DNA from: Sanghuangporus weigelae
Taxonomy: Eukaryota > Basidiomycota > Agaricomycetes > Hymenochaetales > Hymenochaetaceae
Direction: 5' to 3'
Assembly (NCBI GenBank): GCA_033182465.1
Contig: CP137327.1
Location: 744,001-808,000 of the forward strand
Length of the DNA: 64,000 nt
Positions 29,036 to 58,433 of the stretch are shown here, in pieces (within the stretch, counting starts at the first letter, position 1; each line of letters opens with the position of its first letter). A program made the translations under genes and the position numbers. A model generated the notes under the pieces. That model was not told the origin of the DNA. It saw nothing but the letters and a program-made list of their open reading frames with translations, and did not search any database.

Positions 29036-31370
29036 ATGAGCACTGCTGAAGTGCTTTCTTCCGCGAGTGACCTCCTTGCGTCTCATGCTTCCCTACTCGA
29101 GCGCGTACGCTCAACGCAACGGGCAAATAGACGTGCTCTGCGTGAATACACGAACAAACTGGGCACTTCAACTGACTCTACTGAACCCCTCAACGCTCTC
29201 TTATCTCTACCATTAATACAGACCCCGCCTCGTTCACCGACTTCGTCTCCGACTCCTCCTCATTCTCCTAATGACTCACCGTTTCGAAGAGGAGCTTCTT
29301 ATGTCGTCCGTCCGAATCCTCGAGTGGTTCGTTCGGATTTACCTCCTGCGAAGAAAGCCAGATGTGCTCGGTATATGAATTACATTCCAGAAGAAGAGAC
29401 TATAAGGAACGACTACAGTCAGCGATATGTCGATGGTGGCGAGTGGCCGCAGAACTGGGTTGTTGGTGCTGAGATGGAACGTAGGTTCGAAGAGTGCGTA
29501 TAATCGCTTCATAATAACAGTGTACTTTACAATCCCGACACAATCTATTGTTTCTTTTCAGATATCCTAAGCAACAACGCTTACTGCAATGCAAGAAAGC
29601 CGCAGTTTCAGAGCACGCAGTTTCGTCATCATATTTATCCTTGTCAGCTTCGCAAACTGCATTACAAGGTCTCAAATTCGATGTGATATTAATTGATCCC
29701 CCCTTTTCATCGTCATTCACTTGGGAACAACTAGAAAACTTGCCAATAGCATCTCTAGCGGCAGACCCTAGTTTTGTATTTCTATGGGTTGGGAGTGGTG
29801 CTGGCGAAGGCTTAGAGCGTGGCCGAGAGATTTTAGGCAAGTGGGGTTATAGACGATGTGAGGACATTTGCTGGGTGAAGACGAATAAGGATAATAACAA
29901 GGGGCCCGGTGTGAGCTCTAATAAAATGCTTCACTTATCTGCACAAGAGCTCATGCATGGAAGTAGACTGATCCTCCTACAACTTCCCTTTTGACGAGAA
30001 CGAAGCAGCATTGTCTTATGGGAATTCGTGGTACTGTTCGTCGATCTACGGACAGTTGGTTTGTTCATTGTAACATTGGTGAGTCTTACTTTGCCTTCCT
30101 CTCGGATCCACCCTTAGTTGATACCACTCCATATAGACACAGATGTGATATTCTGGGAAGGAGACTCTTCTGATCCAACGCGAAAGCCACCAGAGATGTA
30201 TCAGTTGATTGAAAACTTTTGTCTCGGTACTCGCAGGTTAGAACTATTTGGACGATATCATTCATTACGGAGAGGCTGGGTGACAGTCACCGCTGATGAG
30301 CTCGAACTATCGCCGGAAGAAGCTCATGAAAAGGACGATGCCGTACCTTTTGATCGCGAAAGGTGGGAAAATAATATCAAAGAGCTGGCCCAAGGCGGGA
30401 AATGCGTAGTTCCAAACACCTCTGGTAGGTTATGATACAGCCATGCTTTCTGTGAAAACTCCAACGACTTTTTCTAGAAATTGAGAGCCTGCGACCGAAA
30501 TCTCCAACGCCTCGCGGTCCTGGAGTCAGCAACAGTGTCAGTGCACCGACCGTGACTGCAGTCCCTATGGCAGGTTCTTCCGCCGGTCTTCCGAGCAACC
30601 CCATGCGAACTTCGAGTAGTTTGGGCGGGACAAGTGGCGGTGTCAGCTTGGGTAGTGTGAAATCGAACCAAAACGCTTTCCGGCAGATGAACATGATGAA
30701 CTTTGGCCCATCCATGCCTGGGGGTAACATGGGCGTGATGGCGAGTAGCATGGGAGGTATGGCAAGTGGCATGAACAGCATGGGGAATATGGGGAATGTA
30801 TTGGGGATGGGCGGAATGAGCGGCGGCAACTCCATGAACATGGGCATGGCCACAGGCAATATGGGAGTCGGTGAGCCGATAATGAACCAAATGGGCATGT
30901 CCATGAACCCTATGATGGGCGGTACCGGTCAAGGTGCGTTCAACTTCGGCTTCGACGGCGGCGCCTCGGGGACCGGCAACGTGATGCGTCCAGCCCAAGG
31001 GATGATGGGAATGGGCATGGATATCAACAACATGAACATGGGTGGTGCTGGTGGCGGCATGAACCGCCCCATGGGCAGCGGGATGAACCAAATAGGTCGC
31101 ATGAACATGAGCGCGGGTACGGGTATGTCAGGCATGGGTGGACTCGGTGCGGCAGCATTCGACGCGGGACAAGGAGCTTGGATGGGCGGCGGAGGTGGTG
31201 CTGGAGGAAATATGGGCCAGCAGCAATTCATGGGTGGAGGCGGAATGTGGAATGCCGGAAGTGCCGATGGACAGTCTGGCATGAGTGGCATGGGTATGGG
31301 CATGGGTATGAATACTGGAATGGGCGGAATGGGGATGGGTCAAGGAATGAGAAACTGGAGAGGTTTCTGA
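29036..31370 (+). CDS. METTL14/KAR4: METTL14/Kar4-type m6A methyltransferase subunit
   Basis: MT-A70 family subunit that, with METTL3/Ime4, forms the nuclear mRNA N6-adenosine methyltransferase; the budding-yeast ortholog is Kar4. Five exons join in frame: 29036-29493, 29562-29910, 29967-30078, 30137-30424, 30478-31370, giving 699 residues. Human-like landmarks: [35 protein letters not shown] (DPPF at 198-201; human METTL14 has EPPL), [72 protein letters not shown], and [14 protein letters not shown]. The N-terminal 130 residues are polar with S/T-P sites. Residues from about 425 to 699 form a Gly/Met/Asn-rich low-complexity tail ending RNWRGF, where animal METTL14 carries RGG repeats. It faces STE12 tail-to-tail. 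Confidence 0.95.
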
Positions 31371-33949
31371 CGACTTTGATTCGTTCTTCGTTCTTGTCGC
31401 TTTCATCTTCAGAATCGTTGCAGTGCACAATTCATGCTGTACTAATATATTGTCATTCTGCATCTCTTCATTCTAACTTTTGTACTACAATTCGGCGGCA
31501 TGTACCGATGGCCTTGAATATCGAAATTCATAGAGCTCTCCGAATATTTGTAACGGACAAACCGTAAATACGAACAGGATTTGGGTTGAGCTGTCAATGA
31601 ACTGCTAGTGAGTGCTGGATTGTTGAATACCCTTACCATAGAAATAGAAGAACAATTTTGGGAAAAGCCCGCTCTTTATTCACGCAAATATTGTCACTAA
31701 GATGAGGTTGCTAGTTCTGATTGACCCAAACAAGCTCAAGGTCTCCTCTCACCCCACGATACTATCACATCGGATGTACATTCCAAAGGTCTTTCTCCGT
31801 CGAGGGTTTCTTCTTTACATTGGCCGGCGAACTTATGCATTCACATCCTCTAAAATTCTGCCGGCTATTGATGGCATTCATGGACGCTTTCAATTTCAGC
31901 CGTACATATTTTGTCTCCCTTGCTATGATCATTATGATCTATCACTCCATCGGTCTGTCTCGGTCCGCGTGTTCTAACCGATGGAGATACGCAAGTAATA
32001 ACAAACGGACACTTTTACTTTCCGTGATTACCGAGGATGCTTGATCGCTCGTCAGATTGTGTACTCCTCAAAATCTTAGATTTCCCTGACAAAAAGATAT
32101 CTCTAAGGAAATGACCTATTCAATCTGGATCATCTTGTGCACTAGCTACAGTAGTTCACGCAGCTATATGTGCACACAACGTTTATTTATAAGGTCATTG
32201 CGAGGCTAGTGACCGCAATTTTGATATAGCGCAAACAAACTTCAATAATTTCAAAATAGGGAGATCCTCGATCCGATGTCATTCATTCAATGCATAAGCA
32301 CCGGGAGCAAATTCGTGAATACCTAATCCCCCCCAGTGTTTTCGGCGCTTTCCTAAAGCCAAGTGACTCAATGCAATGCAATGCAACAAGGATCTGCCAA
32401 GAACTTTGTCAACACTGACAGACAGAAATTGACAGAAGTCTCCGGGAGGCAATAGGAGTTGGATGTCAAGCGCTTCTTCCGTTCTGGACCGGTGCCAAGA
32501 TCTCAATCTCGAAGGAAGGGCTCGATTTCAAAGAAGTTTAGATCAATCTCGTGGGAAGTGGTGGCCACAACCACTATCACAGCTATCCCGAAAATAGCAG
32601 TCTTAAGGACCAACTCAAATAAAATTGCTGCTTGATTGGTCGAGCTCTGTCGGAGCGGCGCCAGGGCTCGAACACGGAGCTGAATAGGGATGGCTGGGTA
32701 AGTGATGCCAATGCCTGCCTGTCAATATGGGCGCCAAACTGGCAAACATTTTCATTCTTCTATCATTCTACAAGAGACTCGTGATCGGACGTTCAACCGG
32801 ACAGGGACAGGGACTCACAATTACACGCAAGTGTGATCGGCGCCGGGGACGTTGCGGAAGGAAATCCTCTCCTCCCTTTGCCGAATGGTTCAGTGGCCGT
32901 CTCTTGAGGTTAGTACCCTATCTCGATGTCAATTTCAATCAAAAACCCCAGCCAGGTAAACAGAGAAGGAAAAGCATATGGCATAACTCATATTCACCCA
33001 AGAGCCTTTTTCAGTATTACTAAATTACATGATAGCATATATGTATATCACACAAAAGATGTCAAACTACTTTGGTCAACAGGCCCGAAAGGAGACGGCC
33101 ACAGCGAAGGGAGGGAGGGAGGAATGCAAGGGTGGATAGGTGGGTGGATATTATAGGTAGAGGGATAAGAGGAGGTAGGGCGGACAGCGAAGAAAGGGAA
33201 GGAGGAGAGACAAAGCAGCTACAATGGATTTAATAACTCAGCGTCCGTAGGGCTATATGTACTACTACTACTACTACGTAGATATGCAACACGACGCTAA
33301 GCCGTCGGAAAAAAGGGAAAAACAGACAAGGCCATTAAAGCGGAGGGAAAAGAATTAATCGTGTCGATTGCAGTGTAATAAAGGATGGAGGAGGGAGAGA
33401 GGATGTAAAGTAGTAGTAAGGAGAAATGCCGAAAGGGAGTTAGAGTTATGCGAAAACAGAAAGGTAGATGGGTCGATGAGAAAGCCGAGACACAGACAAG
33501 ACGAGTAATACGAAGGAGATGGGATGAGATGGATGGCAGCCAGGCACAAGAGATGCGGACTCAAGAGGAGTACTATAGATTCGTTAAGAGATTAGGCAAT
33601 AGATGGGTAATGTAGCAAATTTATGAGCCAGCCAATCGAATAAAGATGGAAGGAATATCGAATGAAGAGGAAACGAAATAGAACACAGACAGCATTTTGA
33701 CACAATCATGCATTATATGAAGGAATACTGTAAGGTCGATGGTGAACTTTTGCGAAGGAGAACAATTGGGAAGGTAGGTTCCGACTCAGATCCAGATTGA
33801 TGACATTGAATAGAGAGCGCGCGCGCGCACCGCGAACAAAATAGGCGCTTTGGAGATTAATGATGCTCCGATGCACATACTGCATGCAAGGAACAACAAC
33901 AATGGCGTCGCGACGGTCAACGCAGAGACGCGATCTCATCGCCGCGAGA
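31371..33949. other. Intergenic stretch between METTL14 and STE12 tails
   Basis: About 2.6 kb between two convergent genes, so no promoter is required. Frames reach 107 codons but none has a recognisable motif. From about 33080 to 33560 the plus strand is strongly purine-rich, so the STE12 transcript would carry a pyrimidine-rich 3' region. Short simple repeats are present: ACT triplets at 33261-33277 and alternating GC at 33817-33829. Confidence 0.45.
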
Positions 33950-36900
33950 TCAGGACGCATAGGAGTACGACTGCTCCGAATATTGCGCGGTTCCGTTAAG
34001 GTTATTCATATCCGCATAGTAATTCGCCGTCGCCGCCGCTGCTGCGGGATCTGCCGTGGTGGAGTTGAACTGCCCCTGCGCCGCCGTAGATTCTGAATAG
34101 ACATCCCCGGCGTACGCCGTGACACCCGATGCAGCCGTCATTGAACTATTTCCGTAACTCCCCAAGGTAGCTACGTCCAGACCAATGAGAGTCTGTAAGT
34201 CATCTTGGTAAACGGTCGAGCCCGCAGGTGAATTTGTCTGCGTTCCCGGAGTCTGCTGTGTGTAGTCAAGCTGAGCTTGGTAACCTGCAGGGCTGGAATG
34301 CTGCGAGACGGAGCTATACTGCGGAACTGAATAAGGGTGGTACCCGCGCGAAGCAGCGGCGCCCGGTCCGAGGGGACTCGCATCAAGTGTGTTCGCAGTT
34401 AACGGACGGCGGATCTGCTCGCCTGTGCGTGCGATGGTCGGAGTGACGCTTCGGTAACGGCGTATCGGTCCGACGGCGCTCGGGGAGAAGCCTTGCACAT
34501 TGCCAAGCGAAGACGGATAGAGCACTGCGTGATCGAACGTCTGTTTGTGCGCAGGCGCGGACAGCGAGCCAGCTGAAGACGGTGCATATGACGAAGTAAC
34601 GTCATTTTGCACAGGGTAATTTGAGTTCCCGTATGCAGTCGCGTAGCGCGAGGAAGGCGCGCTAGCGGTACTGAATGCTGGTGATGGGTGCGACGATACA
34701 TAGTCATATCCGGCTGGTAACGAGTTTGAGTGGCCATGCGCAGTAGCCCAGTTACTTTGCGCATCGGTCAACCGAGGTGAATTCTCAGGACTTGTCACCA
34801 AGTTCGCGAACTGCGGTGTATCACTCCCAACAAGACCATTGTACGCCGCGCCATTCGCACCGGAGTGAGCGCCGTATGCACTGGCGTAATCATCATCCTC
34901 AAAGCGCATCGAAGGGTGATCCGCGACCTCAATCTCGCATGCGTTCAGATCGTACTGTTCTCCCGGCGCATACATCACCTGATCAACGCCCTCATCTCCG
35001 TCAGCATCACCAACCGGCACCGCGTTGCTCATGTTAGTAGCATCGCGCGAGTGGATGCGCATGTGCTGACTAAGGTTATCAGCGCGCGAGAACCGGCGCT
35101 GGCACACTTCGCACTGGTGCGGGCGCTCCATCGTGTGCATCCTCACATGGCGCTTCAGATGCTCGAATCGCTTGAACAAGCGCTGGCAAGAATACAATGG
35201 GCACATATACGCCTTTGTCTTGCGTACAGAATCGAGGTTAGCTGGAAGTGAGTTACTGTGGAGCGGCGAACCACTCATTGAAGGGTGCATCCCACGACCA
35301 GGGATTTGTCGTGCTTTAGGCATTGCACTCGAGCGATGGATCATCGCAAGTCGCTGCGCCTGAATAGCGCGCTGGCTCTCGGCCTGGCGTTGCGCTCGTG
35401 CTTGGTGACCTGCTCCGCCACCAAGGCCGGCTTGCGCATCAAACATCGCCGCTGCGCTCATCTCGCCGTCGAGATCGTCAACGACATCAGTGGAACCCAC
35501 ACCGTTGTGAGTCTCGCGCTCCTCTTCCGAAGCAGAGTCGCGTCCAAGTCCACTTCGTCCTGTGCGCGGACCCTTCTTGCGGCGTTGCTTGTAGTTAGGA
35601 GAGCCCTCGAACAGTGAGAACATATTGAAGATCGTGCTAGGGGCAACATCGCGCTCGGAACCGGTCGTCGGAGCTGCAGCAAGTCTGCGTGCCTCGCTCT
35701 CTTGCTCCATAGCCATAGCTTCCTCCGCGCGACGCACGGCGGACTCAAGCTCACCCTCACCCTCTTGGATGCCCTGCGCCTTCGAGAACTGCTCATACAG
35801 AGACCGCTTGCTGTCATACGTAAACGACAAAGCAGGTTCGCCGACTACAACCGTCGTCGGTTCTAGACCCATCTTCTCGCGCTTCAAATCGCGCTCGAGC
35901 GCATCAAGGAACAATCGGTCGTGCGGTACAGAGAACCTGCAGCAGCACCGCAAAACATCCGGTCACATTATTAGGTCCGGAGAAGCGAGCGGGTGGCGAT
36001 AGCACATATCAAAGCGCACAAACGCCATCGTCAAGGACGATCAAACAGTACCGACGTTAGCCCGTCAACCAATAGGCAAAGATAACAGGTGGATCGAGGA
36101 GCAAGAAAAGGGTATAGTCAGTAAACGTTTCATGATAGTTATCGTGAGATGATAGAGATGAGACGGTAGAAGCACGATGGTGAAGTCGGAACAAAGTTCA
36201 GAAGCAACGGCACGGCAGAGATAGCAGGCATAGAGCGGCCGAGAGCCAAAAGCTCTTGATGACGAGCTAGATAAGGCTGCGATCGAAGACACCGAGCCTG
36301 CCACGGATACACGCCGCTGGCGTGAAGAGTACAGCACACTGCACGTGCAGAGGAGAAAGGGAGGCGGGAAGCCGAAGAAGCAGATGTAAACTTACCAATA
36401 GAAGACCTTCTGCTTCTTTTGCGTCCTGATGCATTGATACTTGAAGAGAAGATCAAGGAAAGGAGACTGTAAACGGTAAGGATATAGTTAGCATCCGTTT
36501 TAGCACGCCCCGTGCCAGACTAAAGTAAAGGGAGGTCCCAGCGGCAATGTATGAAAGAAGGGGGATGGCTGTGAACCTGTGAATAGGAAGCAAAGAAGCC
36601 TGATGCCAGAGTATGACGCTCATAGAGGGATATGAAACAAACAAGGGGAGCGAGTAATTGTCAAGCTGGAAAGATGTTATGGGTTCTGAGCTCCACTGAA
36701 CCAGAATGTGCTGTGGCAACCTCTGGCAACACCGCCGGAGAGAAAACAACGCGGGTAAAGTTGCACAGTTTTTCGACAACACGAGGGGGTACGAAAAGAA
36801 AGTAGGGAAAGAGAACGCAAGAATGAAGAAAGAAGACGAGAAAACCGTACCTTTGGTTCCTCGAGGCAGGCATCTGAGCCTGGCTTCAGGTTGCGGAGAT

Positions 36901-39147
36901 CGGAGAACACACCTTCCTCAAACTTCTTCATGTTGCGAACTGGGCGACCTGTTATCCGCAGTCATTTTGAAACAGTAAGCGTTGGTCAAGACGGAGCCGC
37001 CGTCAGCCGTTCAGCCAGTTCATTGACCATACGTGGACAACCGGTGAAGAAGTCCCGCAGGGACGAGAGCGTCACGAGGCAAACCGTGACGAACGAGCAC
37101 CCCATCGCACCGAAAGCGGATAGAACGGGTAATCGTGTGAGGATGAACGATAGGTAGTTGCCGGCAAGAAGATAGAAGATCGATGAAGAACGTGATCCCG
37201 CATTTCGTGGAAGCAAGGTGCGGGAATGAATACGGGATACCACAGGATAATCCAGCACAGTCCAATCCAAAGGCGTATCCCAAAGCACGTTGAATCCGAG
37301 ACAGATGGGATATGAAGCCGGAGCGAGAGGATGATAGGGGCGTTGACGTTGATGGGGGAGGAGGTAGGAGGATGGCCACCGAATCCGAAGGTTAAGATTT
37401 CAAAGTCGAGCATCGATAAGATGAACGTCGAATGGAAGACAGAAACATCGGCATGATTTCGATTCCATTTGAGTCGGTAGAGGGTCCATGTCGAGATGTC
37501 GAGATCGATGTCAAGAACAATCGAAGACGCAGAAGTTAGCGTCATGTGTGCAAACCAAGAAGGTAAAGAATCAGTCAGATAATAATGTTCCAATCATTAC
37601 TGTAAGAAAAGAACGCACCGAAAGCCTCGAATCGAAAAACGAGTGCACGAACGATATCCGTTCCAGTGATATGGTACAAACCTGACCAGAGTACACAGGT
37701 CACGTACTCACCTAAAAATGCAACATTCATAGGTCAGTCATTCTGAATCATGCAATATTGAACCAGTCAGGAAAGAAAAAGAAAAAACAGAGAATTCGAT
37801 GTCAAAAAAAAATCAGCAAAAATTTTTTTTTTGCTAATTGACCAATTCGGTCTCCCAGAATCAACGGCAACTAAGGCATCTTGGGTGCCTCTGCGCCACT
37901 GATAACGAGTGATTAAGTCCCCAACCGAACGACTACCTTATCGTCATGACAAATGGAGCACAATCGCATTTCACAAGTTACCCGTGGACCATCGCGAAGA
38001 CAATCAGGCTTTCTCTACCAGGGAAAGCTTTGGGCAATGTCCCGGGTGGAGGACAGATTTTCTGGTCCCGGGAAAACTAGCTCCATCAAGGAACTGATAG
38101 GCAGGGCGGACCCAAAAGCGACAAAATAAAACTGCCATTTCAAATCAGACGATTGCCCCGAGCATCAATTAGCATCAATCGACGTTCGTTGGCATAAGCG
38201 ACGGGCGGGACGGACGTAAACGCGTGGATCTCGCGTGCGGGCCCAGTGGCCTATGATGATGAACTGCCAGCAGCAAAATTTCTCGCTGGGCCTCGTGTTC
38301 AAGTGGGAAAGAGAAAGTAAAAGCCAAAGGGCAGAAGTCGCAACGAGGAAAAAAAATGAATCTGCCTGTGAAAAAAATCCTTACCAGAAGGCAACAAGAA
38401 GCGATTCAGTGCGGGATGGGTGTTAGGATGAGGCATCATAGGCGTTCCTTGTTGCATGCGTCCAGAAGACATAGTGCCGTTGCTAAAGGAGCCATCTGAT
38501 TCGTTCACCCCGTCGCCGTCTGCAGTTGCCCAGCGGCTCGGCGCGGTTGCAAGGAAGAATTTGAGACGATCCAAGTGTGCGAGCATCTCTTGCTCCTTGT
38601 GGGTCAAGGGGCGAGAAAGAGGTGTGCCGTTGAACGTCACTTGGCTTGGACTCCCATTTGATAGTGAAGTGCTCTTAAGAGGTTGGGAGGTTCGAGGCGA
38701 GGAGCTAGCGCTACTCGACGCAGAGGCATTTGGCGAGCGTGACTGAGAGTGCATCGGTGGGCGTAATTGCTGGTTAGCAAGTGCGGATGCAGAATTTGAT
38801 GGGTAGTCAAGGGAAGGACCAGCGTCAGGGGATGAACGGACGCTACTTGCCGCGCTATGGCCACCTTCTCCCGCTGCAAAGCTACCGCCCAGAGAGGACT
38901 CGGTACTCTGAGCTGGCAAGTTATATCCCAACGTGCGCGACTCAACTGAGTTGAAGCCGGAGTTGCTGCCACTGTACGGAGATTGTGATGCGTAGTCGTA
39001 CGAGGGGTATGCGGGGGACGGATAAGCAGAAGAAGAGGCGGAAGCAGATGACTGGAGCCCCGGGGTGTAGTACGAAGATGCGTACGAGTGCTGGTCGTAC
39101 TGGACATGCGGGGGCGGATGGGTACGAGGGTCGTACGCGTCCATCAT
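33950..39147 (-). CDS. STE12: Ste12 homeodomain/C2H2 transcription factor
   Basis: Transcription factor at the end of the mating and filamentation MAPK cascades; nuclear. Five exons: 39147-38385, 37711-37619, 36948-36851, 36466-36396, 35936-33950, total 1003 residues with frame kept at every join. Residues 1-180 are Ser/Pro/Tyr-rich. The STE DNA-binding domain runs from about 182 to 385: LKFFLATAPSRW, a 40-residue Ser/Gly insertion, RFLLPSGEYVTCVLWSGLYH, ITGTDIVRALVFRFEAFG, KKFEEGVFSDLRNLKPG, CIRTQKKQKVFYWFSVPHD, and GEPALSFTYD. Two C2H2 fingers follow, with ligands C587/C592/H605/H609 and C617/C620/H633/H637. The last 360 residues are low-complexity. Introns are 673, 670, 384 and 459 nt, far longer than others here. 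The start is ATG 39147 (or 39144); the frame upstream opens only with GTG. Confidence 0.96.
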
Positions 39148-39378: not shown

Positions 39379-42300
39379 TTTCAGAGCTGCTCTCTCGAGA
39401 CTACCTTAGTCCTGGCGTCGATGCCCGCGGGGGTGAGCGGACAAAGTGTTTGAATCGTCGCGTAAGATCGCTCAGCGAAAGATGGGGACGGAAGATGATG
39501 ATGATAGGCTAGTTGAAAGGGTAAGTTGGATGGTTACGAGATGTTTTACGAGCGAATATGAGCGACAAGGACGACTGGAAGGACGAGAGGGCGAGAGCGA
39601 CGTGCAGAAAGTACTTCAAGAAAAAGAGAGGAATTAAAAGAATTATATGAAGAGGTAGAGGTAGATGATGGAAGACGGGGAGAGAGCTGAGTGAGAGGAT
39701 GGGATGGAGACGGACACACAGAGCACAGCAACAGCACGAGATCTGATCCCGCTCTCGCTATTTGCCGGACTCGTCCTCCTCCTTAATCCGTATTTAATAT
39801 CATTAATGGCAGCATCATAGGCACATAATAACAATATTTTACATTCGTCTCAATGCTGCTTGCTTCATTGTCGTCTATCCTCCATACATCCTCTTCTGAC
39901 ACGGCCTAATCATCCTCGCCACCTCCTGCCCGAACCTCACTTACTCGATTTTCATTTCCAACTATCACACCGTAGATATCATTCGGCCTAGCCATGCCGT
40001 GCGCTGCATTCGCTGTGAGAGCTAGCTTCCCTAATCTCTCTCTGGCCTTCTCTTCCTACACGTGAGCCCGAGTACTTTGCTCTGCGGGGCAGCCCAGTCT
40101 CCGAGTCCGAATCAATCCTCTCTCGTAAGTGAGCATCCATATCGATCAAATCGCATTCGCCACTACCCTGTGGCACTCAGAGACCAGAAAAAATGCATAA
40201 TCTACTTCTTCCCATCCCGGGAGGAAAAAATTGCATCGGAGAATAGAGCCGTATGCCAGGAATACTTTTCTTTTTTCATCACTACATCAGGCCATCAGGT
40301 CATCACCGATCGACCCACGTCCAACGAGATCGAACGGGCGGCCTATGGGCCAGTGCTGGCGACACCGCCGCAGGGCGCGCGCTCCTCCTAGCCGAGTCCA
40401 ACGCTCCCCACTCTAAGGGACCAATTACACATGGTCTCGTCGTTCTCAGCATCTTAATAATGATCGGTCGAGTTCTCACCACCACTATCCGTCCATTCTT
40501 CTCCGTCCACCCAGGTCCACCCGAGGCGATATATCCCTTTTGGGGTAGTCGGACAACTTTAACTGCGATCGATCCTTTGTTCAAATTCCTTGTTTTTATT
40601 CCCTTTCTCCTTCCTTTCCGTATGATTGTCTGCTTCCGCAGTCGCCGGCATATCAATATTTCAAAGAATGATGCGTAAGTACTTTGACCCGCGTAACGCC
40701 ACCGATGACTCTCACAAAGGAGGATTATGGCAGTACTTTGCGCCTCTCCAAGAAATGCAAAGCGCGCGCAAGGGTACTACACGGACACGGAAGTGATCGC
40801 TGTCACGTATAGAAGGAGAAAGCTAGCTTTGCTCTTGACGTAAACGCAAGAACGAGGCACTAACATACACTAAGGCACACGTACGGTCAGACTCAAAGAC
40901 ATCCGGAGGGGAAGACCAAAGGAATATATCAATGACGAGATCATCGCTGAGTTGTATACACATCAAAGACAAAAGAGCGCTCAGCATTGACAATACTGGC
41001 GAACATAACGTTACTCCAGAGTCAATACATACGTACGTACTTATTCATTCACTTTGACGTCCCTTCCATGCCTGGGGGACCAAAAAGGGTAAGAAAGTCT
41101 GAATCTCCTAAAAGCACGGATTCAGCGTACTGACTTCACTGCATTCCATGTCATAACTTCCCGCCAGATGCAATATCATACCGACGACGACGCGACCCTG
41201 AGTCGGTGGACTCTAGTCTGCGACCACTCTGACTCCGCCAGCACTTTTAAAAGCTCTCCTCTAAATGCTTTGGGTAGTTTGACTTAATCCCTCTACCCGA
41301 GAACCGACGAGAATCGAGCGACTCCGCACTTAGCGGAACCGAAGCATTGTCTCTCGTTCGCTTGTCTTGCATTCATTCGCTTATTTGTGAGGCCTCGATC
41401 TATCATGATTATCCTTCCACACGCACGGGTTCCGGTCGAGATCCCGACCGACCGACTCCCCGGCTGATGCGATGCGATGCGCGTCTTGGTGGCTGGATGG
41501 TTTCTTTGTCTTTCTCAGGCTCCGGTGAGCACGCATTCACGCTCGTGTTCGGGATCGCGCGCGGATAAAAGTACTAGTAATTCTTACAAGTTCTTGTTTT
41601 TGTGTTTCTCCGTGGATCGCTTCCGCTTGACATGAATTTTCAGCTCGCTCGTACCTTACCGGTGCAAATGTAAATGTCGCTCGCTCGCGTAGAGGTAAAT
41701 AATATCTATATCCGAGATTCCTCCTAGAATAACGGCATATAAGAAAGAATGATATAACGGCATCGGTGCGGGTCTTGGATCTTATATCTTATACAACTCC
41801 GCGTCAGATCCGGACTGCGACTCGGCACGTCCATGCAATGCCGATTCCGATCAATATCAATATCAACAATCTCCGCGAGTCTGTCTCCATGTCCCGGACC
41901 CCTTCTCTCCAATGAAATCCAGATCCGTTCGTTCGCGTCCCTAGCCCGCTAGCCTTAGCCCCGTCATCTCCCTTTGTTAGTCTCGCATCTAAAATCTCTC
42001 TGTGTGCATTTCCGTGAGTCCGGCGTTCAGATAATAGAGCGGCGCAAGCTGCCTTGGTTTGGATTAGAACGGGTTGGAATGATCGATTAGGTCGGTGATT
42101 GGGTGATCAGATTGAATTGAATTGGGATTTGGATTGGGTATAGACTGGTCGGTGACCAAGCTCCCGGAGTATGTGTAGTAAACAAGCCTATCCAGCTTGC
42201 ACGGGGACACTCTACTCTGCATTCGGCTCTGCACGAATTGAGAGCTGTCGAATCTGACTCTGATTCTGATTCCGAGTTTTTTGTCTTTTCTTTTATTGTC

Positions 42301-42435
42301 TTTTTGTGATTGCGTACCAGTCCTTCCACTACATAGACTAACGGCTTGAGAGCTCTTGAATCAGATATTACACTTCATCCAAAATCCCGTTGTTGCTTTG
42401 TTTTTCCCGAGGACCAAGGCTTCTTACATATCCTC

Positions 42436-42458
42436 TTTTTTATTTTTATTTTTATTTT
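42436..42458 (+). repeat. TTTTA short tandem repeat
   Basis: Several TTTTTA units in a row within the gene-free stretch upstream of STE12. No associated gene. Confidence 0.6.
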
Positions 42459-45368
42459 GCATGCACGGAGCCAATGCATACCTGCACCGGCTTCGCCGGC
42501 CTATCCGACCTATCCGACTTCACCGAGCTCGCTCATTCACCGCAGTTGCCTTATTGCAAGCCAGGGTGATCACTTCTTCGATTTGAGACTGGCAGCACGT
42601 TCTTCATGTTCCTGTTGATGAATGCGGCGGATTCGACGATCACCGAGAGTCAGACGAGACTATACCGCCTTTGCCTACCGGCTGAGATTATGCTCCTACA
42701 GTACTGGAACGCACTTCGTCCCACATATTCAACTGATTACTTTTTCTTTATCAAGAGTCATTCGCTTTTTCTATTGAGGTGCTTGATGCTAAGTAGTTAC
42801 GATCAGTTCAGAGAATGATTTCATACACCAGACCGAGACCTGAGGCTAAGCATACAGGCGTTACAGGTGGGATGCCGGTCTCCCCTCTGCCTGCAAGAGC
42901 GTTCGCTCCCGAGTAATCATCGAGAATCAAGATCAAACATATTAATCTCTTCTCTCTCTTCCCGCCGTGAAGTTCCATCATCCATTCGAAATTTACTTCT
43001 CTAATTCGAATACTTATCTTTATAGTCCCAGTAATCCCTCCTTTCCGGTCATTCAACTTGTTCTCTTTTTATATTTTCATTCTTCTTATTCGGAGATACA
43101 AGAACAAAAAAAAAGAGATCTACGAAAAATATGCAAGCAGTCTGACTTGTGAATGATCGTCCGGAGAAGATACTCAAAACAGGCTAGCTAGGCCTCCATT
43201 GGAATCCTGTGTGCTTAATCCCTTCCGTTCATTGTCTTCGGCCTCGGTCACACATGGCGCGGATCGGATCAACTACTTATTCAAGTTGATCTAAGTTGAT
43301 TCGGCTCGCTTGTTCAGGGTTTACTCCTGAAGATCAGAGATCGTTACGCGTGGCGAGAATATAGATTTTGCTTCCGGCCGTTGTGGCCACGCCGTCGAGT
43401 CCTTCCTACTTAGCAACCGGCCACCCAAGGACATTACAATCACCGCTGCGGATGAGCAAGCAAACCCCTGAACGGAGATGAGCGCGATGCCTATTAAGTT
43501 TCTTATCATTCCCTACTTTGTCGTACTTTAGCTTACACACACTTACGTATTTCCAATGTGGTCCACGATGTCTTCGAGCAAGGATCATACTGTTATTCTC
43601 AATCCTGTTTATAGCGCATTTTCGTACACGAAAGACGATTCACCGAAGCAGCCAGAATATGTACGTACGTAAAGCTCGCCTCGGGCAATTGAGAGGGGAA
43701 AGAGCATTGGCTTACTACCGGTCCAGTTCATCTCACCTCGCCTCGGGGCTATCTCGGATTGGTAGGTAGCCCTATTTCATACCACGCATCTCGACCTAAT
43801 TATTCTTGGGAATTTCAACTATGTACTATGCTCGGCCGGAAAAGCTTTCTAGTACGATACTTACCTTTTAATGCGGGAGCGGGCGAGTCGGGTCACAGTT
43901 TGATAGATACTGTGAAGATGAAGCTACTATATTCGCAATTCACTGAAAGTGAGCTTTGGGCGCATTTACAGCCTCAATCCTGCTATGAAGGAGAACAGAC
44001 CTTATTTTATTCACGATTGTTCAGTCATGGATTGCAGTGCAGCCACAGCATCCTCGCTCGTTGACAAAGCCCTCCAATATATCATCTCATTAGCTCAAGT
44101 CTCCCAGTCAAGCAGTATACGGTACCAGCAACAGCTATATATCATTGTATCAAATTGTTATCGTCAAGGTATCTCCTCTGAAATGTTCCGCAGTCAGTGG
44201 CTCTTCCGGAACATCAAGAACATCGCAACCGAAGTCGGTTACCGGGTTTTGTTGTAGTGATAGAGTGCGTTTCTCGGTCTCTAGATGAATGAACATATTT
44301 CCGGTGGTACCAGCCGAAAGTCACGTTCGTACCGTTATATCCCATCCACAATCTGTGTCTTGCTTAGATGGGTACCAGGGGAAGCGAAAGCATCTTGCAG
44401 TGCTCCTCTGTCAAATTAAATAAGTTTCCCAAAAGCAATCATTCAGAGGAATTTGTGGGGATCGGGACAATTCAATCTTCCGCTATATCGGAAGTCGGAA
44501 GGAGCGTTATAAGCTATTACTGTATCTCCGAAATGGGGTCAAAAGAGCAGTGCTTTTTTTTCAGTGAGCTCCACCGAGCCATGCTCTATGCCACTCGTTT
44601 ACAAGAAGGCATAGGAAAAATACTTTGACTCGACTCGACTCATTGGTTTTTCATCATTCTCGCATTGCCGTTGTTCTTCGCCAGCGAACATGGCCAGGTG
44701 GACCTCCGAGTCAGAACTCTTCTTCGGGGGGAACAAGATTTCAAAGCAAAGAATGCCGCGGATCCAAGTGCGGTTCCTGATTCCTGAACCTGAACAAACG
44801 TCCGATCCTTACGTACTGTGGCCCGATTTTCGTAAGTGATCTTGTAAGCAAGCGAACAAGTGCCTAATAGGTTTTCTTCTCCCGTTCCCCTCGCATTCGG
44901 TTAGGGGTCTAGGCACGACCCAGTGTTAATCGCTATTATCAGTAAAAGAGAATGACAAAAGAGAATGCCGTGCATACGTATGGTTGCATGTGCTTTATTG
45001 CTGACAGTAGTAGAAAGGCCGGGCGCTCGTACGCCACGATCTAAGATGACTGCAGGAGCAAAGCGTCACGGAGGGTAAGTAAACTCTCACACAAAGTCCC
45101 CGCCCGTGCGGGAGGGGGGGGGACGAAAGTCAACGGGACCGATGCCCCGAACGTCTTGCCCCCGAAGCAAAATTCTTCATGCAATGGACCTGAACTTCCC
45201 GGCGGAGAGAACTTCCGACAAGCGAGCTTTCATTCATAAAAGAATTCATTGCAGTGGAGAGCCTTCATCTCGGAGTCGGCGGTTCAAAGCAGTAATGTAC
45301 AAAGGTTGTTACAAAAGGGTAAGCAGGAGTCGATAAGAAGGACCGGGACAGCGCGTACGGATGACTAA

Positions 45369-46318
45369 CTAAGGATCAAGTCTCGTAGGAACTCTCGTTG
45401 CGCCAGTAAGATGAATGGTTCCCCCGTTAGCATATCCGCACTTGATCAGGAACTTTACAGCCTGGGCAAACTCATGACCAACTCCGAAACGATTTGGGAA
45501 AAACAGCTCTCTATTGAAGCATTCGCGGGCCTTCTCGGGCAACGAATCCGTCATGCCGCTTGTGAATGGTCCTGGAGCGATGCAGTTAACTCGAATTCCA
45601 TACTGCGCTGAGTTCGTTCCCTGCATCAGATGCAAACTATTTGTGGAATATAGACTAGAATACACACCGAGATCGCGAGCGAGAGCAAGAGTAGCGCTTA
45701 AGATACCTCCTTTGCTTGCTGAGTACGCGACGAAGCCAACTGTGCCTTCGGTCTAGGAAAATTTCAGTCATATTTTGTCTCAAGTTGAGCTGAACCCACA
45801 GCTGCGACACTCGACACTAAGACAATCGACCCTCGCTCGCCATCAGGCCCTTCCGGCGGGACCTTGGTAAGATACTTGCAAGCAAGACGTGTCAGATTGA
45901 ATGCGCCAGTTAAGTTGACTCCAATAATGCGATTCCAATTCTCAAGCGGATGAGGATTTCCTTCATCGTCGATCGTTCGGCAGAACGGCGAGATTCCTGC
46001 TGCAGCTATGATGCCACCAAGCTGGGCGCGCGTTGATTGCGTCCAGGCTATTGTTCCCTCTACTGCATTGCCGACGTCTGATTCATTCGAAACATCGGTC
46101 TTGAAGAATTTAACATGTGTATCGCTCTTCGAGAATAGGTCGCTATTTTCTTGGATGTCAAATACCGAGATAAAAGCTCCTGCCTCGAGGAGTGCATAGG
46201 CAGTTGCTAGTCCTAGTCCTGATGACCTGCGACACGGTAAGATGGTTATAGTGTCTCGAAGGAGCTATGGAAGTAATTACCCTCCAGAAATGATAAATGT
46301 TCGATTCTCAGGCTTCAT
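45369..46318 (-). CDS. Short-chain dehydrogenase/reductase
   Basis: Classical SDR of the 3-hydroxyacyl-CoA/HSD17B10-like kind, using NAD(P)H; substrate unknown. The ATG at 46318 begins MKPENRTFIISGG and, across an 54-nt intron, forms the cofactor motif SGGSSGLGLATAYALLEAG. Further landmarks: FKTDVSNESDV, GIIAAAGISPF, NWNRIIGVNLTGAFNLTR, SIVLVSSVAA, catalytic YSASK, and GIRVNCIAPGPF. Exons 46318-46281, 46226-45800 and 45752-45369 join in frame. Within the last exon a 45-nt segment has good intron borders (donor after ARDLG, acceptor before GTNSAQYG), so the protein is 282 residues unspliced or 267 spliced; relatives lack the extra residues. Divergent from the Cbp6-like gene by 745 bp. Confidence 0.88.
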
Positions 46319-54789: not shown

Positions 54790-57700
54790 ATGCCACCATT
54801 TTTCTCAAAGGTGTTCGCAAGGGGCAAGGAGAAGGAAAAAGAGAAGGGAAAGGATGGCTTGAAAGAGCCCTCGTCGCCGTCTGCCAAGCAGGCAAAGCGC
54901 TTCTCGCGCACATCCGCGACGTCCTTGCTCGAGGGCAAGTTCGAGGCAGTGTCCCCCTCGATTTCGCCAACAGCAGAAAAGTATGGAGAAGTGGATCAGA
55001 CGACGCCGAAGAAGGACAAGGAGAAGGAGAGGAGCGCCGGTCTGTTTCGCCCCAAATCGCGCACTATGTCCGGAAGTGACGCGTCGCGGAAGCAGGAAGA
55101 GGTACCCCAGCTGAAGCTGGACTTGAACCTCCCGAATCCGAAGCTCGACTCGAAGAAACGCAATTTGAGCATCGTGTACGAGGGCGACGCTGTCCTGGAC
55201 GATGATGTTATTGGAGAGAAGAGACTCAGCCCGGCTGAGGCTCTTAAACTTATGCGCGCGTGTTCCTCCGTCCTAACCAGCCGAGGTGCGTAATTCTCAC
55301 TTCTTCCGTCCCTAATATCTAATTCATATCATATCGACATGCCGTTCTAGGCCTGGAGACACTGGGCATTATGCATCCGCATTGGTACTCTGCGTCACCT
55401 GCCGTTCAGCGCAGGATCATCTCACTCTTCCTCTCTTCGCTTACCGCTTCCTCGGAAGCCGCTGTTTCGGCGGCTTCTTCGTTCGACTCGGAACTCGAGT
55501 TCGCACGCTCGCCGCACGATGTTGCTGCCGTTTTCCGATGGGCATTGCGTCATTTGAGGCTGGAAGGGGATGCGTTCGACAACGATAACTCGCCCTCCCT
55601 TGCTTGGTATGATAGTTTCAAGGAGAAGGAGAAAGCATCGGAGTATCCGAGGACTGCATATAGCGATCTGTTATTGCCTGCCGTGAAACCTTCTCATGTG
55701 GAGCTGCTCGATTCCACTCTCAGTCTCGTGTCTCGACTGGCGAGCCATTCTGAATGGAACGGGACGTCCGGGAGCAAGCTGTCCATGTCCTTTGGACACT
55801 ATCTACTTACAGAGAATCAGGTTGACGGTATAGAGGATTGGGTTTCATTTTATTCTCATTGGGAACGCGCAGGAAGGGCTTTGGAACATATTTTCTTATC
55901 TTCTCTCCGGTGAGTTTTGGTGCTCTTACTTATTTTATTCGAATCTTAAAGGTCGTTCAGTGATGAAGATGCCAAGACGGGAATCCCGAAGCGACTGCTA
56001 GAGCTCGTCGCGAACTATCCATATTCCAAATCTGCCGACGACAGTCAGTTCCCTCGACCAACGCGCTTTGCAACTCGAAATTACGACGCTCTTTACGTTC
56101 GTGTCACGGCAGAGAAAATTCCTGACAAACGGTCCCGGGAAGAAGCGTATTTGCCTCTCCAGCTCATTGAGAACGCATTGAAGTCGGATCTTTCAGGTGA
56201 TTTGGATGATAAGGAGCTCGTTGCGTTATGGGATGAAGTCAGAAAAGTGGCCGATGCACCGAAAGAGGAAGCAGAAACTACGGAGGGCAAGACTTCCGAG
56301 AAGTCCTTAGGAAACATATTTTCTGATGACTCGATCCGTCTTATGTCGCTAAAGTCTGACAGCGTAGAGAAGGGCACTCCGACAATATCAATGTTCGCAC
56401 CAGTACCTGATCATGATGCGTTGTTCGGGACCCCGACAGCGAATGGCAGGGCGAAGGCTGCTAATGGCTCTACGTCAGTATCTCGGCAAACGTCCGAAGC
56501 GACTGCCTCAAGTCCCATCGCGGCTGATTGGAATGTCTTCTCGTCAGCAGGCTTCGGGGAGTCGGCGGCCGGGCAGAGTCTCGCTGCTACGCTTCTGGAC
56601 AATGACGTCGAGAAGACGGACCCGCCGAAGCTCGCCGCTCGGCGATCGCTGAAGAAGAGCCGATCGCCAGGACGCGGCGCACGCGGCGAGAAGGCGGCTG
56701 CAGCGGGCGAACAACCTTCTTCGCCCTCTGACGCTCCAGTTCGGTTCAAGACCTCACGTGTCTCGCTCGTCAAGATCGACGAGGCGTTCGTCGACTTTTG
56801 GAGCGACGCGCTTCTGGACCCGATCTCGGACGCATGGCCGAACTTCGTCGTGTGTCAGCTCAAGTCGGACGTTGTGCGCACGCATGGGGACAAGAAGATC
56901 GCGTGGCTGGTGATCGAGCAGAAGTTCGTTGCACCCTCTCTGCCTCCGCCGCCATCACCGGGCCGGCGAGCAAGTTCGCCGCGCCCGAGTGTACGGAGCG
57001 ATGGCGAGAGCCGACCTAGCGTCGTCAGTCGTGTTAGCGCGACGTTCTCGCCGCGAAAGCGCTTCAACTTCTTTGGAAGTCAGACACCTTCATCGCAGAC
57101 CGTTTCCGGCGGCGAAAAGAGGGAGAGCAAGGCGATCGGCAAGGGCCAGAAGGTGAACGAGCTTGGAGAAGTGATCCCGGAGAAGGAGAAACCTCCACCA
57201 CCAACACCGAAGACGGCGGAGTCAAAGGCAGCTCCAGCGGTCCCGGAGAAACCCAAGGAAGAGGATGTTAAACAGCCTAGTGATGTCGCTGCGGGTACTG
57301 CAGCTGTTGCTGTCGGAGCAGGTGCGTTGGCGGTCGCAGCAGATGCTACTGCGGAAGCTCTTGCGCCCGAAGAAGAGAAGCCCGAACTTCCTTCCAAGGA
57401 GGAACAAGAGAAACCAGAAGCTCCACCTAAGGATGAAGAGACGACGGAGCCAGTTAAAGAGGAGGCTGTAGATGTTCCCGTGAAGGCCGTCGAGCGGGAA
57501 CCAGAGGCTATCCCTGCCCCAGAGAAAGCTGCGATTGAAGAGCCAACTGACGAGGTGCACGTTGAGGAAATTCACGTTGCTGAACCTACGATCTCTCAGG
57601 TCGAAGAAATTGCTGAGGTTCCTACGCCTGAAGCGCCACCTGCAGTAGAGCCGCCATCCACAACGGCAGTTACCGAAGAGCCATCTCCGTCCGTACAGAA

Positions 57701-58433
57701 AGAAGAATCCATCGGGGAACTTACAGCCGCCGAGCCTCATGCAGAAGAAGCAGGAGAAACCGAATCCTTTACGAGCCAACATCACGGTGCTGGGGACTCT
57801 CGGTTCGTCGAGCATATTGAGGCCACTCCTCCTGAAGAGAAACCCGTAGCGCTTGAGCCGATTGCGGAGCCGGAGGCTGCTAAGCCGACTGAGGAATGCG
57901 CACCCGCGGAACCGGCTTCTGAGGCTGCACCGGAGGTGAAGGCCGAACCTGAATCTATAGTCGAAGAACTGCCCTCGCCGGTGGTTGAGGAAACTGCTGA
58001 GTCTGTCGCACCAGTCGCGGAAGAGCCGAGTGCGGAATCTATCGACAAACCAGCTGAAGCGATTGAAGAAGTCCCTCCTGTTGTCGAAGAAGATGCTACT
58101 TCTGCGCCGATTCCTGAAGAGACCGCTGTTCCCGTTGAAACGAAACCCGAGGTTGAGACTTCTCCGGCTCCAGCGGAAGAACCTGCGGCCCCAGCCGCCG
58201 TTGAAGAGCCAGCATCAGTTGCGGACAACCCGAAACCAGAGCCAGCTGTGGAGCCCTCTGCTCCAGCCGCTGCGGAGTCCATCGAGAAGACCAATGGCGT
58301 GGCGGACTCACATGCTGTTAAAGAGGAGGAGGAAGCGAAGGCTGATGACACGCACGCGAAGCCGGGCGAAGAGCCTCTCGCGGAGGTCGAGGAAGCTCCT
58401 ATAAAGACTTCAACACACGCTCCAGATTCCTGA
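54790..58433 (+). CDS. Msb1/Mug8-domain morphogenesis protein with long acidic tail
   Basis: Fungal protein of the Msb1/Mug8 (DUF1708) group, linked in yeast to Cdc42/Rho1 polarity and cell-wall growth. Exons 54790-55285, 55351-55909 and 55952-58433 join in frame to 1178 residues. The start MPPFFSKVFARGKEKEKEKG is typical. The domain spans about 150-500: LSPAEALKLMRACSSVLTSR, ETLGIMHPHWYSASPAVQRR, DVAAVFRWALRHLRLEG, SFGHYLLTENQVDGIEDWVS, and YPYSKSADDSQFPRPTRFAT. A second conserved piece at about 620-680 contains KIDEAFVDFWSDALLDPISD and IAWLVIEQKFVAP. Residues from about 745 onward form a 430-residue Pro/Glu/Ala/Val-rich tail. The middle is rich in Ser and S/T-P sites, as expected for a kinase-regulated scaffold. 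Confidence 0.82.

Follow-up and report, generated by a model that had tools for sequence, protein, structure and literature searches.

Locus and Gene Order

The stretch of DNA analyzed here, referred to as the window, comprises 64,000 nucleotides (nt) of the Sanghuangporus weigelae genome (assembly GCA_033182465.1, contig CP137327.1, positions 744,001 to 808,000 of the forward strand). A METTL14/KAR4-family gene at positions 29036-31370 on the plus strand and an STE12 gene at 39147-33950 on the minus strand are direct neighbors in convergent orientation. The original prediction had placed the two side by side and tail to tail, separated by about 2.6 kb of gene-free DNA. Spliced gene models gave the same coordinates, with a stop-to-stop distance of 2,579 nt (31371-33949) and no recognizable third gene in between. 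The two start codons (29036 and 39147) lie 10.1 kb apart. Given this distance and the tail-to-tail orientation, no promoter is common to METTL14 and STE12, and a shared or divergent promoter is excluded.

The METTL14/KAR4 Gene

METTL14 was modeled as five exons on the plus strand (29036-29493, 29562-29910, 29967-30078, 30137-30424, and 30478-31370) encoding 699 amino acids, with the ATG at 29036 and the stop codon ending at 31370. The introns are 68, 56, 58, and 53 nt in length. An MT-A70 domain was predicted by Pfam (PF05063, E-value 6e-43, 147.2 bits against a cut-off of 23.9). When the protein was compared with PDB, METTL14 chains scored up to 224.8 bits (1.7e-65) and METTL3 chains up to 88.7 bits. 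As the best METTL14 chain outscored the best METTL3 chain by this measure, METTL14/KAR4 is the right subfamily as judged by sequence comparison.

Residues 124 to 415 aligned with human METTL14, including an LRPKSP segment. The catalytic tetrad of METTL3 is DPPW. At the corresponding position human METTL14 has EPPL whereas the S. weigelae protein has DPPF, encoded in exon 29562-29910 on the plus strand and standing between the DPPW and EPPL types. The DPPF residues, taken from sequence, are not in themselves proof of catalytic loss. The last exon (30478-31370, plus strand) encodes an EIE-LRPKSP-P segment in common with human METTL14, followed by a tail rich in glycine, methionine, and asparagine. 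Animal METTL14 carries an RGG tail in place of this one. The final 227 amino acids include 73 glycines, 50 methionines, 23 asparagines, and a single RG, and are of low complexity.

For a hexamer coding scan, 13 sequences from the window served as the training set, namely METTL14 minus its last exon, STE12, and 11 long open reading frames (ORFs). It detected four of the five exons of METTL14 and of STE12, partly by construction as both genes were in the training set. The exons missed were a 71-nt exon of STE12 and the last, Gly/Met-rich exon of METTL14, in which no coding signal was found. Its LRPKSP match and the length of its open frame are the grounds for taking that exon as coding.

The STE12 Gene and Its Introns

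STE12 was modeled as five exons on the minus strand (39147-38385, 37711-37619, 36948-36851, 36466-36396, and 35936-33950) encoding 1003 amino acids, with the ATG at 39147 and the stop codon ending at 33950. Pfam predicted an STE domain at amino acids 247-353 (PF02200, 2e-53), spanning profile positions 3-109 of 109, and a C2H2 finger at amino acids 615-637 (PF00096, 5.2e-08, above the cut-off). The STE domain had no match in PDB up to an E-value of 1. The finger belongs to a C-terminal C2H2 pair at about amino acids 585-637, of which the first member was read by eye and resembles the motif printed for Flammulina. A C-terminal C2H2 pair is the filamentous and basidiomycete type of STE12. The gene identities first proposed for the pair were thus borne out by the MT-A70 domain and the METTL14 chains as best PDB match for one gene, and by the STE domain and C2H2 finger for the other.

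The four STE12 introns and the short exons between them occupy 35937-38384 on the minus strand. The introns are 673, 670, 384, and 459 nt, a total of 2,186 nt, compared to 53-68 nt for each METTL14 intron. All four fall inside the stretch encoding the STE domain, following codons 254, 285, 318, and 341. Each contains an in-frame stop, so retaining any one of them would truncate the protein within the DNA-binding domain. The pyrimidine fraction on the STE12 sense strand is 0.62-0.65 in introns 2-4 and 0.57 in intron 1.

The ste12-like gene of Flammulina filiformis is described as having 908 amino acids, 2,957 base pairs (bp), five exons, and four introns (PMC10192742). It shares with the S. weigelae gene the number of exons and introns, the STE domain, the two C2H2 fingers, and similar motifs. 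The two differ in intron length, as the Flammulina gene would hold only about 230 nt of intron in total if the 2,957 bp are genomic (the paper words them as coding sequence) compared to 2,186 nt here. The number of STE12 introns is therefore ordinary, while their length looks unusual on two comparisons, with the Flammulina gene and with the neighboring METTL14.

The Intergenic Region

The convergent stretch 31371-33949 was gene-free by ORF length, coding scan, Pfam, Rfam, and ARAGORN. Its longest stop-free frame was 109 codons, a length matched in 108 of 200 first-order Markov resamples, so that its ORFs are not beyond chance. Six of the nine ORFs of at least 75 amino acids were searched with Pfam and none was above the cut-off; one match fell below it (E-value 0.021, 15.4 bits against a cut-off of 28.9). 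The hexamer scan listed only two segments there, both weak (13.1 and 14.2 bits; listing threshold 12). A hidden gene between METTL14 and STE12 was rejected on the ORF length test, the coding scan, and the Pfam search of these six ORFs. No Rfam match at gathering scores and no tRNA predicted by ARAGORN was found anywhere in the 64-kb window, this region included.

The part of the region beside STE12 (33001-33949) is pyrimidine-rich on the STE12 sense (minus) strand. The corresponding purine excess on the plus strand was 0.14-0.44 across the five 200-nt bins covering 33001-34000. Part of this 0.95 kb segment may be a long 3' untranslated region (UTR) of STE12, as most STE12 intron sequence is pyrimidine-rich on the same strand. 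A repeat search of the intergenic region and the STE12 intron span turned up one imperfect inverted repeat of 18 nt and otherwise only short families of two copies each.

Transcription Factor Motifs

Ste12, Tec1-like, and Prf1-like sites were sought in five regions, in a total of 35 motif tests. The yeast Ste12 site TGAAACA occurred seven times in the window compared to 10.05 expected. No exact TGAAACA was present upstream of METTL14, in the intergenic region, or upstream of STE12. One Prf1-like site was found in 41148-45300, far upstream of STE12 (0.03 expected; 3% of resamples), the smallest tail fraction among the 35 tests; the next smallest, 0.08, belonged to two TGAAACA sites in STE12 introns.

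Neighboring Genes

Of the 48 ORFs of at least 150 amino acids in the window, 30 were searched with Pfam; five of the other 18 were pieces of METTL14 or STE12. The families recognized were a transporter, an Oxa1-type protein, a monooxygenase, glycogen phosphorylase, a dehydrogenase, NOC2, Msb1/Mug8, and pseudouridine synthase. An F-box-like match was below the cut-off (E-value 0.0028). NCBIfam, run on 10 ORFs, gave a partial match to leucyl-tRNA synthetase, below the whole-protein cut-off. No pheromone receptor, homeodomain, mitogen-activated protein kinase (MAPK) cascade, METTL3, WTAP, VIRMA, or YTH family was found at an E-value of 0.01 or less in the 30 ORFs, a search that small exons of intron-rich genes could escape, as could pheromone genes, which fall below its size range. 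The window as a mating-type locus is unsupported, there being no receptor, MAPK-cascade, or homeodomain gene in the ORFs scanned; pheromone genes were not searched for.

About 6 kb upstream of STE12 (39406-45763) no segment rose above the coding-scan threshold, save the end of the dehydrogenase frame at the far side. The longest ORF there was within chance (matched in 52 of 200 resamples), and Pfam covered one of 24 ORFs of at least 75 amino acids. This stretch may hold a large regulatory region or a non-coding transcript. On the plus strand at 55323-58433, an open frame of 827 codons that matches nothing in Pfam or NCBIfam comes after the frame carrying the Msb1/Mug8 match (55323-55913, 3.9e-10).

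A 244-amino-acid stretch of METTL14 had no relative in viral and genome contig collections without eukaryote genomes, and a 150-amino-acid stretch of STE12 had none in the viral collection.

KAR4/METTL14 and STE12 in Other Fungi

Both gene families of the window are also found in Saccharomyces cerevisiae. There, KAR4 and STE12 are presumably unlinked, on different chromosomes, and Ste12 is not known to have C-terminal C2H2 fingers, in both of which yeast differs from S. weigelae. Cph1 is the Ste12 homolog of Candida albicans. The yeast background of the original prediction was correct: Kar4 is the METTL14 homolog, acts with Ste12 in mating, and is a member of the N6-methyladenosine (m6A) writer (PMC10470960, PMC12712937, PMC10393049). 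Ste12 activates a KAR4 transcript specific to mating, after which Kar4 joins Ste12 at genes with weak sites; reduced interaction with Ste12 was reported for eight of 11 mating-defective kar4 alleles tested (PMC10470960). An AlphaFold3 prediction has a continuous beta-sheet running from Kar4 into the DNA-binding domain of Ste12; according to its authors, m6A-writer activity does not explain the effect of Kar4 on expression (PMC12712937). The interaction in mating is that of yeast (PMC10470960, PMC12712937), whereas the S. weigelae pair is known from its genes. In Candida albicans KAR4 was described as pheromone-induced and unresponsive in a cph1 mutant, citing partly unpublished data (PMC2745568). 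Going by the S. cerevisiae and Candida albicans reports together, transcription control ties KAR4 to Ste12 in Saccharomycotina.

Pezizomycotina retain STE12. In nearly all of them MTA1 is the sole MT-A70 protein and KAR4 is missing, while Basidiomycota typically possess both IME4 and KAR4 (PMC10826363). From the first of these groups it follows that the Kar4-Ste12 partnership is not obligatory. A KAR4-related gene is present in Ustilago maydis (PMC4917244).

In Cryptococcus and Kwoniella, STE12 belongs to an inferred ancestral four-gene pheromone/receptor (P/R) core with MF, STE3, and STE20 (PMC12510652). The likeness to the window is that, at the P/R or mating-type (MAT) locus, STE12 is linked with other mating-pathway genes. 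The difference lies in the partners, which in those genera are STE3, pheromone genes, and STE20 (PMC12510652), whereas no STE3- or STE20-type gene was recognized in the ORFs scanned here. The words KAR4, METTL, and methyltransferase are absent from the main text of that account of the P/R locus (PMC12510652). The position of STE12 is variable in Trichosporonales (PMC6730849), and in Pleurotus STE12 was reported away from MAT (PMC13108863). The accessible parts of three further papers contain nothing on the location of METTL14 or STE12 (PMC5604158, PMC8161036, PMC8893723). No account of METTL14-STE12 linkage in basidiomycetes was found among the titles and abstract beginnings listed in searches of open-licence literature.

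Interpretation of the Adjacency

METTL14 and STE12 are probably two ordinary intact genes of a mushroom-type basidiomycete that are neighbors by inherited gene order or by chance. Family membership, the tail-to-tail layout, the lack of TGAAACA near either start, the lack of a recognized partner gene in 30 of the 48 ORFs, and published lineages in which the two genes are separable all argue for this reading. From its family, METTL14 would most likely be the RNA-binding, non-catalytic member that pairs with METTL3/IME4 in the m6A writer. STE12 would most likely be a MAPK-responsive transcription factor with a homeodomain and zinc fingers, serving mating and development. Each gene would be transcribed from its own promoter.

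Several points weigh against so plain a reading. The yeast orthologs are physical and functional partners and so are not a random pair in meaning (PMC10470960, PMC12712937). Two genes chosen beforehand would seldom be adjacent, at a probability of about 2/N or about 1.7e-4 for an assumed N of 12,000 genes. Two TGAAACA sites lie within the STE12 introns, against an expectation of 0.55 for the intron span (8% of resamples), and the core TGAAAC occurs three times upstream of METTL14 compared to 1.57 expected (19% of resamples); both excesses are weak. None of the motif excesses is notable, and no weight was placed on them because 35 tests were made. The figure of 1.7e-4 does not apply, since the pair was chosen after the window had been read. 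With about 20 genes and about 19 adjacent pairs (counts that are not exact), and with 0.5-1% of pairs assumed to be partners, such a pair would be expected in one window per five to ten. A single adjacency is therefore weak evidence.

Within the reading of two ordinary genes, unbroken gene order carried through related genera with no selection for the pair is a sizeable possibility, somewhat short of an even one. It requires no extra assumption, and the recognized neighbors are unrelated housekeeping and metabolic genes (phosphorylase, NOC2, pseudouridine synthase, and a leucyl-tRNA synthetase-like gene).

A conserved functional linkage, in which mushroom-forming fungi keep the pair because METTL14 is a Ste12 co-activator like Kar4 in yeast, with an advantage to co-inheritance or to a common chromatin domain, is very unlikely. 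The STE domain of the S. weigelae protein is intact and strongly matched, and the usual presence of IME4 and KAR4 in Basidiomycota is in keeping with such a linkage. Set against these are the convergent layout with no shared promoter, the position of both starts away from any full Ste12 site, the 30 of 48 ORFs in which no additional partner gene was recognized, the presumed separation of KAR4 and STE12 on different yeast chromosomes, and the Cryptococcus/Kwoniella account of the STE12 neighborhood, which is without KAR4 or METTL14. KAR4 and STE12 are separable in the published accounts of Pezizomycotina and of Cryptococcus/Kwoniella. The indirect evidence leans against selection for METTL14-STE12 linkage or shared chromatin control, because the layout is convergent, no full Ste12 site lies in either upstream region or between the genes, no partner genes were recognized in the ORFs scanned, and the two genes are separable in published lineages. 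Coupling of the two genes by read-through antisense RNA from one over the other is highly improbable: the tail-to-tail layout and the transcript-like composition of the STE12 side of the intergenic region would suit it, but the genes are 2.6 kb apart and the purine/pyrimidine bias flips sign midway between them, which fits two separate transcript ends.

Both METTL14 and STE12 are genes of known kinds, and the partnership of Kar4 with Ste12 was already established for yeast. The adjacency seen here is a single case without replication. Conserved adjacency alone would not prove selection, because gene pairs can persist together by inheritance alone. It would, if found, suggest that the Kar4-Ste12 transcriptional partnership is older than the split between ascomycetes and basidiomycetes. 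A conserved mating or dikaryon module of mushroom-forming fungi, with METTL14 also serving as Ste12 co-activator in the manner of yeast Kar4, is a very unlikely reading of the pair. Were this the case, the non-m6A role of Kar4 would be ancestral to Dikarya and not an invention of yeast.
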